A stretch of 34,434 bases of DNA, taken from assembly GCA_016875435.1 (NCBI GenBank), contig VGRE01000011.1:1-34434 (forward strand). Reading direction: 5' to 3'. The notes under the pieces were generated by a model. The model was not told the DNA's origin. It saw only the letters and a list, made by a program, of their open reading frames with translations, and searched no databases. Origin of the DNA: Deltaproteobacteria bacterium. Lineage in GTDB: Bacteria; Myxococcota_A; UBA796; SXON01. Position numbers and translations under genes: made by a program. Of this stretch, positions 5,673 through 8,953 are shown one piece after another; positions within the stretch are counted from its first letter, which is position 1; every line of letters starts with the position of its first letter.

Positions 5673-6071
5673 ATGGAACCAGGACGGCTCGTCCACGTGC
5701 GCATCGCCGCGCGCGACCCGGCGCGGGCCGCGCGCTTCTACGCCGATTGTTTCGGGTGGACCGTGGGCGAGCTCGACGATCGCGCCGTTCGCTTCCTCAC
5801 CCCGGGCGGCGTAGCGGGCAGCTTCTGGGCCGGCGGCGAGCCATCGAGTGCTGGGCCCGAGCTCTACGTGGGCGTGCCCGACGTGGTGCGGGCCGTCGCC
5901 CGCGCCGTGCAGCTCGGGGCGATGCGGATCGCCCGTCCCGGCCCCGGGCCCGACGGGGCCACCGTGGCGAGCCTGCTCGACCCGGAGGGCAACCGCGTGT
6001 GCGTGTGGGAGGCCCCCGGCAGTGGGAAGGAACGCGCACGGGCTGATGGGAAGGACGGTGCCCACGAGTAG
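5673..6071 (+). CDS. VOC (glyoxalase/bleomycin-resistance fold) protein
   Basis: A 132-residue single-module VOC protein. It has the characteristic opening VHVRIAARDPARAARFYADCFGW, interrupted here for brevity, and the closing SLLDPEGNRVCVWEAP. VOC proteins bind divalent metals and act as dioxygenases, isomerases, resistance proteins or antitoxin-like binders, and the substrate cannot be told from sequence. The His in VHVRIA and the Glu in CVWEAP are at usual metal-ligand positions. The ATG at 5673 has AGG seven bases upstream. The stop codon (6069-6071) is inside the left arm of a 9-bp inverted repeat that precedes the sigma-54 promoter. Confidence 0.82.
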   Translation: MEPGRLVHVRIAARDPARAARFYADCFGWTVGELDDRAVRFLTPGGVAGSFWAGGEPSSAGPELYVGVPDVVRAVARAVQLGAMRIARPGPGPDGATVASLLDPEGNRVCVWEAPGSGKERARADGKDGAHE

Positions 6072-6110
6072 CCTGCTTGCTAGGATAATTGTTGTGCTTT
6101 CCAGGCTACT
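6067..6110. promoter_or_regulatory. 9-bp inverted repeat upstream of the sigma-54 promoter
   Basis: AGTAGCCTG at 6067-6075 is the exact reverse complement of CAGGCTACT at 6102-6110, separated by a 26-bp AT-richer segment. It spans the end of the VOC gene. The long spacer and lack of a T-run argue against a terminator. Its centre is about 120 bp before the predicted start of the RNA, a usual distance for an activator (enhancer-binding protein) site of a sigma-54 promoter. That role is an inference. Confidence 0.45.
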
Positions 6111-6121
6111 TCCGTTTCATT

Positions 6122-6141
6122 ATGGGAACTTGCCTTCCCAT
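6122..6141. promoter_or_regulatory. 7-bp inverted repeat, possible activator site
   Basis: ATGGGAA at 6122-6128 and TTCCCAT at 6135-6141 form a perfect dyad with a 6-bp spacer. The centre is about 75 bp before the predicted RNA start. Dyads at this distance are typical of upstream activating sequences, but the binding protein is unknown. Confidence 0.45.
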
Positions 6142-6180
6142 TACACGCGACGAAAAGGCGCTTCTGACCATGCGGCAGGC

Positions 6181-6197
6181 TTGGCACGCCGCTTGCT
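6181..6197 (+). promoter_or_regulatory. Sigma-54 (RpoN) promoter, -24/-12 type
   Basis: TTGGCACGCCGCTTGCT matches the sigma-54 consensus YTGGCACG-N4-TTGCW at all specified positions, with the invariant GG at 6183-6184 and GC at 6195-6196 in the required spacing. Transcription should start about 12 bases after the GC, near 6207. There is no gene for at least 1.6 kb downstream in the plus direction, so its product appears to be the structured RNA at 6207-7703. A sigma-54 promoter needs an ATP-dependent activator; candidate sites lie at 6067-6110 and 6122-6141. Confidence 0.85.
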
Positions 6198-6206
6198 CTA
6201 GTGGAG

Positions 6207-7703
6207 CGCGACGCCGGGGCGACCCGGGAGTCCGGACCGAGAAGCCGTTCTTCTCGAACGGTCTTTGACGTTCTTCCGTTTCTAGCGACGCAGTCGGCAA
6301 GTCGGCTGCTCGCCCCGGGGTCTCGCACCTCGGTACCCAAGCTCCGGTTCGCCGGGGGGCGGGCACCAGCGTCGAGCCCGCGCTCGAATCCCCCTCGGGG
6401 GAGTTGGGTGTCTTCTCGGAGATGACCGCTGGCAGCGATGCCCGCGCGAAGCTCCGCCGCGGGGATGAGCGTGGATCTGTGCGGGCGGCGTTGGAGCGGG
6501 CAAGCCCATGGGAGCATCGGCCGGGCGTAGAGGGCAACCTCGAAACTCGGAACGGCTCTGTCGGTGGAGCAAGGCCCTGGGGTTCCGGTCCCCGCGGCGC
6601 GCGGCGAGCAATCGCGGCGTGTTCGCGAGGAAGAAAGAACGAGAGGGCAAGGTTGGCGGTGTACGCGGCGTCCCGAACGGGAACCACGTCGCGGTGACGC
6701 CAGCCGGGTGCGCGCGAGGCTCATGCAACGCGCACATCGTCGCTACCGGCGGAGAGCAAGGCTTCGGAGGGCAGAGCGGCACCACGGGGATCCTCGCCTC
6801 GCAAGCGAGAAGAAACGTGGTGAACCCCATGGTCGTCAGCCAGGTGCAATACCCTGGCCCGCGCGGGGAGGAGCAAACCGTCGAGGTGGTGAGAAACCAC
6901 GAGGGCGGAACGCGGCGAGATCCTGGCTGGATCGAGCCCGAAGGTGCTGGCAACGGCACCGGGAGTGGACTCCTCGAGCGTGTGCGACGGAGGGGCGATC
7001 TTTGGACAACCCCATGAGAGGCAGTTCGAGGGCACGGTGGCAACGCCGGGCCCGAGAACAGCGAGAGAGAGCGACCCCAGCAATGGCAGCATCGAGCTAG
7101 CCGGCGCGAAGGTCAGGAGGGTGCAGTGAACGGCGACTTTCGTCCCTGTTCGCGGCCCAACCGGAGGTCCTCGAAGGCCCCCATACGCAGCGCGCGAGCG
7201 AGGCGATGGAAGGCCAAGGAGGGCGGTGACAAACGCCAGCGAGTCACGACATCGGTTGGGTATCTCCCCCGTCTCCCCCACCTTGCCCGTCTTGAGCGCG
7301 CTTGCGTAGCGCGCAGCCGCCGCGAGGCGGTCCGAGGCCATCGCCACGAGGAAACTCGAGGGTGTTGAGCGCGGAAGGCGTGTGGCAAGAGGGCGAGCGC
7401 CCCCGCGGCGGTCACGCGAGTGACGGTCCGATGGCGGCGCGGCGCGTGGTGGAACGGCGTGCGGAGAGAGGCTCCGGCGAGGAAGTCGGCGAGACGACGG
7501 GCAACCGTCGAGCAACCGGCCGACGAGCAGGAATCACCTCGGGCCCTGTAGACCAGCGAACGGCATACTTGGTGCTCGCGACGGCCTTGGCCGGCGCGAC
7601 GCTCGATCTCGACTGAATCCTCTGGAGGGGATCCACTTCCGGAACATCATCCCGGCGTCGACGGGCCCCCCAGGTGGCAACACCTGGGGGGTTCCGTGTT
7701 TTT
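6207..7703 (+). ncRNA. Candidate large structured noncoding RNA (~1.5 kb)
   Basis: No frame on either strand here gives a recognisable protein. The ORFs are Arg/Pro/Ser-rich shadows, and bases are not periodic as in neighbouring genes. Instead there are many perfect short hairpins, several capped by GNRA loops: 6530-6541 (GCAA), 6943-6960 (GCAA), 7035-7048 (GCAA), 7317-7330 (GCGA), 7347-7358 (GAAA), 7495-7510 (GCAA) and the terminator (GCAA). Others are 6245-6261, 6290-6309, 6372-6387, 6708-6735, 6886-6900, 6919-6933 and 7296-7314. CGACGCCGGG at 6209-6218 pairs perfectly with CCCGGCGTCG at 7651-7660, closing the whole molecule. The start is set by the sigma-54 promoter and the end by an intrinsic terminator. 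I do not recognise it as OLE, GOLLD, ROOL, HEARO, RNase P RNA, tmRNA or a group II intron. Function unknown. Confidence 0.75.
7666..7703 (+). terminator. Intrinsic terminator with GCAA loop
   Basis: The left arm at 7666-7676 and the right arm at 7681-7691 form a perfect 11-bp stem, with six C-G pairs at its base, around a GCAA tetraloop (7677-7680). A U-rich tail (TTCCGTGTTTTT, 7692-7703) follows. It lies directly after the 3' arm of the end-to-end helix of the structured RNA. The run of U is slightly displaced from the stem, but the hairpin is very strong. Confidence 0.88.
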
Positions 7704-7810
7704 GTCCTCCCGCCCGGGCCGAGCGAGGGCTTTTCATTCTCGTGGATGATCTTACATGTGCAGCGACGCGGTCGAACCACTTCCTCGCCCCGCGCTCTGA
7801 GGTCGTTCCG

Positions 7811-8953
7811 ATGTCCCTCTGGTCTACGCTAACGCAGCACGCCAAGGCCCAGTTCCTCGACGTCATCCAGTGGCTAGACGACACGCCCAACACGCTCGTC
7901 TACCGCTTCCCCGTGTTCCAGCAGGCCATCCAGGACGGCGGCAAGCTGGTGGTGCGCGAGGGGCAGGCGGCGGTGTTCGTGGCCGAGGGCCGCCTCTCCG
8001 ACGTGTTCGGCCCGGGCACCTACGAGATCAGCACGAAGAACACGCCCATCGCGTCGTTCTTCTCGAGCATCCAGTACGCGCTCAACTACCCCTACAAGGG
8101 CGACATCTACTTCATCTCCACGCGCCAGTTCACCGACCAGAAGTGGGGCACGTCCAACCCCATCCCCATGCGCGACGCCGATCTCGGCGTGGTGCGGATC
8201 CGGGCCTTCGGTGCCTTCGCCTTCCGCATCACCGATCCCGCCGTGTTCATGCGCGAGATCGTGGGCACCGCCGGCCTGTTCACCACCGACGAGATCACCG
8301 GCCAGCTCCGTCGTAAGCTGGTGAGCGCTCTGGCCGACACCATCGGCGAGTCGAAGATCCCCGTGCTCGACCTCGTGGCCCAGTACATGGATCTCGGCGA
8401 CGCGCTGCGCCAGCGCCTCACTGGCTGGTTCCAGGCCAACTACGGCATCACGCTGACCGACTTCGTGGTCGAGAACGTGTCGGTGCCGCCCGAGGTCGAG
8501 AAGATGATGGACACGCACGCGCGCATGAAGCTCGCGGGCAACCAGCAGGACTACCTCGCGTTCCAGGCCGCGGAGAACATCGGCGGCGCCATGCGAAGTG
8601 GGGGTGGAGGGGGCGGTGGCGGCGGCGGCAACGCGATGATGGACGCCGGCATCGGACTCGCCATGGGCCAGGCCCTCGGCGCGCGCCTCGGGCAGGCAAT
8701 GAACCCGGCGGCCCCCGCGGCGGCGCCCGCGATGCCGCCCCCCTTGCCGCCGGCGATGATCTTCCACTACGCCGGGCCCGACAACGTGCCCCACAACCTC
8801 GGCCCCGCCGACATCGCTGCCCGCGTGCGCGCCAACCCGGCGGGGCGCCACCTCGCGTGGCGCGAGGGCATGGCCGGCTGGACCAACGCGTCCGACGTGC
8901 CCGAGATCCGGGCACACCTCGGCGCGCCGCCGCCGCCGTTGCCACCCGGCTAG
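7811..8953 (+). CDS. SPFH-domain protein with C-terminal GYF_2 domain ('virion core protein'-like)
   Basis: 380 residues. The first ~250 form an SPFH/band-7-like domain of the YdjI type, with GQAAVFVAEGRLSDVFGPGTY and VRIRAFGAFAFRITDP. Such proteins form membrane-associated scaffolds, though no transmembrane segment is seen here. An almost pure glycine run (about residues 263-273) and an Ala/Pro-rich linker lead to a GYF_2 domain at about 316-370 (IFHYAGPDNVPHNLGP, then WREGMAGWTNASDVPE). The ATG at 7811 follows a GAGG ribosome site. An upstream in-frame start at 7742 would add 23 residues that do not resemble the family. The gene starts 108 bp after the terminator of the structured RNA, so it is probably transcribed separately, although its proximity may be meaningful. 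Confidence 0.85.
   Translation: MSLWSTLTQHAKAQFLDVIQWLDDTPNTLVYRFPVFQQAIQDGGKLVVREGQAAVFVAEGRLSDVFGPGTYEISTKNTPIASFFSSIQYALNYPYKGDIYFISTRQFTDQKWGTSNPIPMRDADLGVVRIRAFGAFAFRITDPAVFMREIVGTAGLFTTDEITGQLRRKLVSALADTIGESKIPVLDLVAQYMDLGDALRQRLTGWFQANYGITLTDFVVENVSVPPEVEKMMDTHARMKLAGNQQDYLAFQAAENIGGAMRSGGGGGGGGGGNAMMDAGIGLAMGQALGARLGQAMNPAAPAAAPAMPPPLPPAMIFHYAGPDNVPHNLGPADIAARVRANPAGRHLAWREGMAGWTNASDVPEIRAHLGAPPPPLPPG

Follow-up and report, generated by a model that had tools for sequence, protein, structure and literature searches.

A candidate class of large structured noncoding RNA in Myxococcota with a predicted sigma-54 promoter and a boxA-like decamer

Introduction

To our knowledge, only a few classes of very large and intricate bacterial RNA have been described, and for most of them the function is still debated. 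GOLLD, ROOL and OLE are large, elaborate noncoding RNAs, and in GOLLD a conserved core is joined to a variable remainder, as set out in sections of PMC12286853. For boxA, a passage of PMC5725501 gives the gamma-proteobacterial consensus GYTCTTTAANA. CRISPR arrays with an upstream boxA were described by Stringer et al. 2020, as cited in a passage of PMC7862264. An RNA repair operon controlled by RtcR and sigma-54 is treated in part of PMC7790460, and the Pxr RNA of Myxococcus is named in PMC8963815.

Here we analyse a stretch of 34,434 nucleotides (the window) from a Deltaproteobacteria bacterium, in which a first-pass annotation had proposed a large structured noncoding RNA driven by a sigma-54 promoter. 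The reading as a large structured RNA is supported by covariation, by the absence of a coding signal and by the presence of homologues, and the locus very probably contains, as far as sequence comparison can tell, a gene for a structured RNA that acts in trans. This RNA is set apart by its description from Pxr, which is also a noncoding RNA of Myxococcota, but a small one, linked to sigma-54.

Results

The locus and its bounds

An intergenic gap occupies positions 6072-7810 of the window, between a glyoxalase-like gene on its 5' side (5673-6071) and an SPFH-domain gene on its 3' side (7811-8953, with the start codon picked by hand). The gap had been described as opening with a consensus sigma-54 promoter and closing with a strong intrinsic terminator, and both were found. 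The predicted -24/-12 element, TGGCACGCCGCTTGCT, lies at 6182-6197 on the plus strand and is the only perfect match in the window to TGGCAC-N5-TTGCW, a consensus that follows the relevant part of PMC12316311. Nine more sites match with two mismatches, compared with an average of 10.02 in shuffled sequences. The element is also present in the two syntenic orthologues and in the second copy described below, and its position would place the start of transcription at about 6207-6208. At the other end, a terminator search returned a 14-pair stem with a 4-nt loop and a T run at 7663-7703 on the plus strand. The predicted RNA, its 5' end deduced from the promoter and its 3' end from the terminator, would extend over 6208-7703 on the plus strand, or about 1.5 kb. 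Among the 28 copies tabulated below, a terminator candidate was reported in 15; the candidate of G023a is implausibly distant, and several contigs stop before the terminator.

Coding potential and known families

Substitutions in the RNA unit are distributed over the three codon positions as 31/40/45 in the comparison with one syntenic orthologue, G008 (45 of 116 at the third position), and as 13/13/19 with the other, G010 (19 of 45). The corresponding values for the two flanking genes are 11/7/47 and 15/6/74 against G008 (47 of 65 and 74 of 95 at the third position) and 5/3/21 and 7/2/32 against G010 (21 of 29 and 32 of 41). All four indels in the RNA unit, three with respect to G008 and one with respect to G010, have lengths that are not multiples of three and so break the frame; two of them occupy adjacent positions and are perhaps a single event. 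Ten open reading frames from the gap were compared with protein families. None matched NCBIfam at an E value of 0.1 or better, and none was significant in Pfam, where the best match had an E value of 0.097 and 12.9 bits against a cut-off of 32. On the codon-position and indel test and these scans we reject a protein gene in the gap, in keeping with the annotation's view that no plausible protein is encoded there.

The annotation had also recognised no known RNA class. Rfam 15 returned no family at gathering scores in the window, and none in 20 distant loci. A permissive scan of 6000-7850 gave four chance-level matches, to families other than GOLLD, ROOL and OLE, all under the gathering scores, with a best E value of 1.8; further permissive scans gave none. 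On these scans a known RNA family was rejected. No tRNA gene was found within the window. A search of the literature, mostly without subscription journals and extending to sections of PMC11109978 and PMC12286853, yielded no published account of this RNA.

Homologues across the phylum

The existence of conserved homologues was borne out at several distances. A DNA search of 58 genomes, including the window's own, found a match somewhere in 29, and the two syntenic orthologues G010 (97%) and G008 (92%) match across the whole unit. Some of the weakest DNA matches are probably due to chance, for example those in G004, G017 and G019, genomes in which the covariance model described below finds nothing. 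The window's own genome, a draft of 544 contigs, contains a second, diverged copy at C34:17777-18411, which agrees with the first at 73% in the core and at 82% at the promoter.

The first 26 aligned sequences, which were chosen for having the sigma-54 box, mostly contain this box and the decamer UCUUUGACGU; they also have in common a segment resembling CAAGCCCANGGGAGCA and a core roughly 200 nt long. A covariance model built from the 26 core sequences (R1) matches 33 of 63 genomes of the order and 64 of 377 in a sample of the phylum, the own genome being counted. Of these 64 genomes, 31 lie outside the order, and none of the 31 contributed to the model. For a second model (R2) we combined 38 sequences from close and remote copies; at an E value of 1e-4 it matches 71 of the 377 Myxococcota genomes and 48 of 234 genera, source genomes and the own genome included, a broad yet patchy spread. 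Searches of more than 40 genomes were run with stricter filters. R2 matched none of 345 genomes from a second phylum, that of G377, among whose records is one of Desulfobacteraceae, and none of 12 genomes reached through chance loci; both results carry little weight without a known positive. Draft genomes lose copies at contig ends, as is seen in G002, G003, G012, G016 and G021, where the promoter and the start of the RNA run off the contig. The model does not match in these five genomes, and in G003 only about 70 nt of the RNA are left.

When named genomes were scanned for the combination of promoter and decamer, 60 loci were obtained, and viral contigs added one more. By profile, 42 of the 61 carry the RNA and 19, the viral locus among them, do not. 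The records of the 42 are titled Deltaproteobacteria, Proteobacteria, uncultured proteobacterium, Myxococcota, Myxococcales or Oligoflexia. At L081, L114 and L122 the RNA occurs in records that bear the titles Bifidobacterium breve and Klebsiella pneumoniae, apparently in error; L122 seems to be identical with contig G012:C102 of the window's family, hence its title looks wrong.

Covariation and folding

The first-pass annotation had reported at least fourteen perfect local hairpins, a count that we did not confirm. Defining a hairpin as an uninterrupted Watson-Crick stem of 6 bp or more with a loop of 3-8 nt (the annotation gave no definition), we counted 6. The mean in shuffled sequences is 3.66, and 14 of 100 shuffles reach 6; four other stretches of the window contain 2.0-6.7 per equal length. 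The number of hairpins is thus not above chance and is no evidence for an RNA. Covariation among homologues is such evidence.

It was judged by the number of pairs that change on both sides and by the number of compensated cells, each compared with 500 shuffles and with slid controls. In the core alignment (A1), two-sided changes occur in 21 of 31 pairs, and there are 113 compensated cells as against 35.4 in shuffled and at most 19 in slid alignments. When distant copies are included (A4), these values become 32 of 35 pairs and 347 cells, compared with 103.2 shuffled and at most 101 slid. For domain 1 (A2) they are 14 of 25 pairs and 85 cells, compared with 25.9 and at most 18. No shuffle in 500 equalled the observed value on any measure but one: the number of pairs changing on both sides within domain 1 was equalled by 7. 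The two-sided changes are far above the slid controls, over which the structures have an advantage in having been derived from the tested alignments themselves.

The pairs define two domains on the plus strand, each predicted from both covariation and folding. Domain 1 (6500-6780) is closed by a long-range helix that pairs GCCC...GGAGC with GCUUC...GGGC. Domain 2 (6822-7020) is the most conserved core and the source of models R1 and R2. Folding of the single sequence is more stable than that of shuffles in both (z = -3.13 for domain 1 and -2.81 for domain 2), and the minimum-energy fold of the window sequence itself reproduces both conserved domains. Two end pieces fold weakly (z = -1.98 and -1.43, the latter for 7400-7699). 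The 3' part on the plus strand (7021-7662) is marked by pieces that are conserved in the alignment of copies from the window's family. The structure of the 3' third and of the 5' end is less certain. A 5' hairpin, CGAGAAGCCGTTCTTCTCG, was picked up by the perfect-stem count at 6238-6256 (plus strand), immediately before the boxA-like decamer; covariation does not support a hairpin at this place, the prediction having given two pairs only, located elsewhere.

Four helices in 6500-6780 and 6822-7020 are broken by purine-rich internal loops with three nucleotides on each strand, for example A-N-G facing G-A-A and G-A-R facing R-A-G, and these loops are perhaps one repeated three-dimensional motif. 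In L049 and L050 (G023), insertions in domain 1 leave about 1 kb between core motifs that are common to the other copies.

Invariant unpaired stretches lie between helices, as would be expected of a regulatory RNA whose exposed conserved stretches chiefly pair with mRNAs or sequester a protein; control of an activator type would also suit a regulator. We consider this reading unlikely, since much of the conserved length lies in compensated long-range structure, beyond what a base-pairing regulator should need.

Copies and neighbourhood

Several genomes contain 2-6 copies, with the maximum of six in G065. Seven pairs of copies, each pair from contigs of one assembly, were compared over the 124-159 nt between the promoter and the end of the contig; in 6 of the 7 there is at most one base of difference. 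Both of these observations could be explained if the RNA were a ribozyme or belonged to a mobile element, for instance a protein-less group II intron, the near-identical 5' stretches being what recent duplication would leave. Three lines of evidence make this reading decidedly improbable. Rfam families include group II introns, and no Rfam family matched. Among 65 loci with flanks of up to 4 kb (shorter at contig ends), no cluster of similar open reading frames occurs across more than three loci, and hence no recurrent reverse transcriptase or transposase lies beside the copies. Finally, both copies hold their positions in G000, G008 and G010. A phage or plasmid element was also considered and rejected: phage records, plasmids and viral contigs gave no true match by DNA or by pattern, and the sole viral candidate, L135, lacks the RNA. 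The sensitivity of the pattern search is limited, given that the core pattern recovers only 23 of 253 fetched loci.

The flanking genes were also searched for a partner, and this candidate was set aside because no flanking cluster reaches beyond three of the 65 loci; some of the clusters are orthologous sites. A reading of the RNA as a lengthy leader or precursor acting in cis on the SPFH-domain gene, which lies on the same strand with its start taken as 7811, about 107 bp past the terminator, is most improbable given this strong intervening terminator and the same want of a recurrent neighbour. The combination of no recurrent neighbours and a terminator of its own favours an RNA that acts in trans.

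Sigma-54 control and the upstream inverted repeat

An inverted repeat, TGGGAA-N6-TTCCCA, is located at 6123-6140, 41 bp before the -24 box, and is probably the site of an activator (an enhancer-binding protein, bEBP). A second one, TGGGAAGGACGGTGCCCA, at 6047-6064, is 117 bp before the box and overlaps the end of the glyoxalase-like gene; a second repeat at 116-118 bp from the box is found in several, not all, copies of the window's family. Promoter and decamer together define 70 distinct sites, from which 16 were dropped as non-RNA by profile, leaving 54 copies. With up to 3 mismatches in 12 allowed, the repeat is present in 44 of the 54 and missing in 10, and in 42 of these 44 it stands 40-43 bp before the -24 box. 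It is present in none of the 16 sites without the RNA and in 71 of 3000 random windows. These counts do not change when loci that were fetched with the repeat itself are removed. In the window's own genome the strict repeat occurs in two places only, each before a copy of the RNA, and a sigma-54 gene is present. A promoter box with a repeat upstream is the layout expected, from sequence, of sigma-54 promoters with an enhancer-binding protein. RtcR was considered as the activator and rejected, as no match to it was found in the own genome.

A looser pattern of repeat plus promoter finds 45 places in 28 of 60 genomes of the order, 30 of which were inspected. Most of the inspected places of the TGGGA type enter an RNA copy or leave the contig; at three, L212, L234 and L238, the profile finds no RNA. 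Eight of a TGGGG type (L220, L221, L222, L228, L229, L230, L233 and L235) appear by eye to precede protein genes with short leaders. These eight sites probably belong to another regulator, and a second enhancer-binding protein may have them as its regulon.

The proposal that the RNA is driven by sigma-54 is supported in the window's lineage by the box and the inverted repeat, and was not found to extend to the whole family. We looked at another 44 copies, the majority of them belonging to other orders: a full sigma-54 box is present within 1.5 kb upstream in 10, whereas the control strand gave none for any of the 44. In L036, L037 and L038, which have no box within this distance, promoter and decamer lie about 2.1 kb upstream of the core, and for this reason the promoters of other copies may have been missed too. 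In L047 no promoter was found. It is probable that many of the distant copies are transcribed from a different promoter. The 28 tabulated copies have no bearing on this question, as they were picked from 44 loci for the promoter box, so that their promoter rate means nothing; they include one locus, G044d (L069), that is not an RNA copy.

A DnaA-box-like 9-mer, TTATNCACA, is located 83-84 bp before the -24 box in four distant copies (L170, L173, L176 and L183). Within 250 bp, such a 9-mer is found in 6 of 49 upstream regions and in 11 of 4000 control windows.

The boxA-like decamer

At 6262-6271 on the plus strand the window contains TCTTTGACGT, a decamer whose conservation and likeness to rRNA boxA make it a presumed NusB/NusE antitermination site. 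In the 28 tabulated copies the decamer UCUUUGACGU follows the -12 box by 60-108 nt in 26, 24 times exactly, and one of the two exceptions is G044d, the non-RNA locus. The own genome gave no 16S match and the comparison with rRNA operons therefore rests on relatives, in which boxA was sought with one mismatch allowed; extra matches in L243 and L247 were taken as chance. The rRNA leaders of genomes of the order contain GGTCTTTGAA or GATCTTTGAA in seven of eight cases and GCTCCTTGAC in the eighth. Three rRNA spacers were of sufficient length to be read: GGTCTTTGAC and GCTCTTTGAC occur in two of them, and GTTCTTTTAC in the third. The core TCTTTGA is common to the decamer and to the rRNA boxA of these relatives, and the letters that follow are GACGT here and GAAAA in the leaders. 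This core, held in common with the rRNA operons of related genomes, suggests that UCUUUGACGU is a putative antitermination site of the rRNA type.

Beyond the tabulated copies, 11 of another 40 copies have [GTC]TCTTTGA at 250-900 nt ahead of the core, with 0 of 40 and 2 of 80 in the controls, and the boxA-like motif is missing from 8 distant copies that were aligned. In the f16 group a similar motif seemingly lies inside the body of the RNA, so that part of the conservation may be structural.

Discussion

As a whole, these results lead us to a model in which an enhancer-binding activator on the inverted repeat would allow the sigma-54 polymerase to transcribe the RNA under a stress or developmental condition. 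The boxA-like decamer near the start would load the rRNA antitermination complex (NusB/NusE), and this would let the untranslated 1.5-kb transcript evade Rho and fold while it is being transcribed. The finished RNA might then serve, alone or with proteins, as a scaffold, as has been proposed for OLE, ROOL and GOLLD. The model in its entirety (a stand-alone RNA acting in trans, under sigma-54 activator control, with boxA antitermination and a scaffold role) is on balance probable. The scaffold role taken by itself, which is drawn by analogy, is perhaps correct and is offered tentatively. A wider version would be a phylum-wide class of Myxococcota RNA that is made in the manner of rRNA (with boxA and up to six copies), in which one large branch is activated through sigma-54 and which forms an RNA or RNA-protein particle in starvation or multicellular development; we regard this as doubtful.

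By sequence and predicted structure this is a new RNA class of a kind, the large intricate noncoding RNA, that is already known. We call it new because it matches no known family and because its control is unlike that of the large RNAs with which we compared it; on a stricter reading, it may instead be a new member of a loose kind of ornate RNAs. What is new here is the inverted repeat at a fixed spacing, the boxA-like decamer and the second, diverged copy. The RNA has no Rfam match and occurs in numerous families of Myxococcota, a phylum noted for its multicellular members. The predicted activator site and promoter offer a strong handle on when the RNA is made, and the boxA-like element makes it testable whether antitermination of the rRNA type serves other long untranslated RNAs. 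In a cultured carrier, the regulator, the condition and the phenotype would be open to ordinary genetics.

Comparison with known systems shows several partial likenesses. As described in part of PMC7790460, the RtcR system has in common with the model for our locus an enhancer-binding protein engaged in RNA matters. The CRISPR arrays with boxA, in the citing passage of PMC7862264, offer another example of a long noncoding transcript other than rRNA; unlike them, the present locus would produce a single structured RNA, with no repeat array, and no cas gene was found among the ten window genes scanned. The leaders of rRNA operons, treated in part of PMC5725501, likewise carry a boxA-type element close to the start of a long RNA that is not translated, and in the leaders and spacers of related genomes its core letters are those of our decamer. 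Our locus differs from them in its sigma-54 promoter, in specifying a single RNA that does not match rRNA and in the letters that follow the core. Group II introns differ in that neither an intron model nor a recurrent neighbouring gene matched here.

From GOLLD, ROOL and OLE the RNA differs in that it gives no match to their covariance models, has a sigma-54 promoter and, among the genomes searched, occurs in Myxococcota only. Carriage by phages or prophages, often near tRNA genes, is a trait of GOLLD and ROOL that we did not find, the window having no tRNA gene and the phage records and viral contigs searched no true match. Homo-oligomeric particles are a trait of GOLLD, ROOL and OLE, and the RNA described here is known from sequence alone. 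Its size is about 1.5 kb in the window, while in G044 some 2.1 kb separate the promoter from the core alone. Like GOLLD, ROOL and OLE, it is large, elaborate and noncoding, with a structure supported by covariation, a conserved core joined to a variable rest and a function that is not settled.
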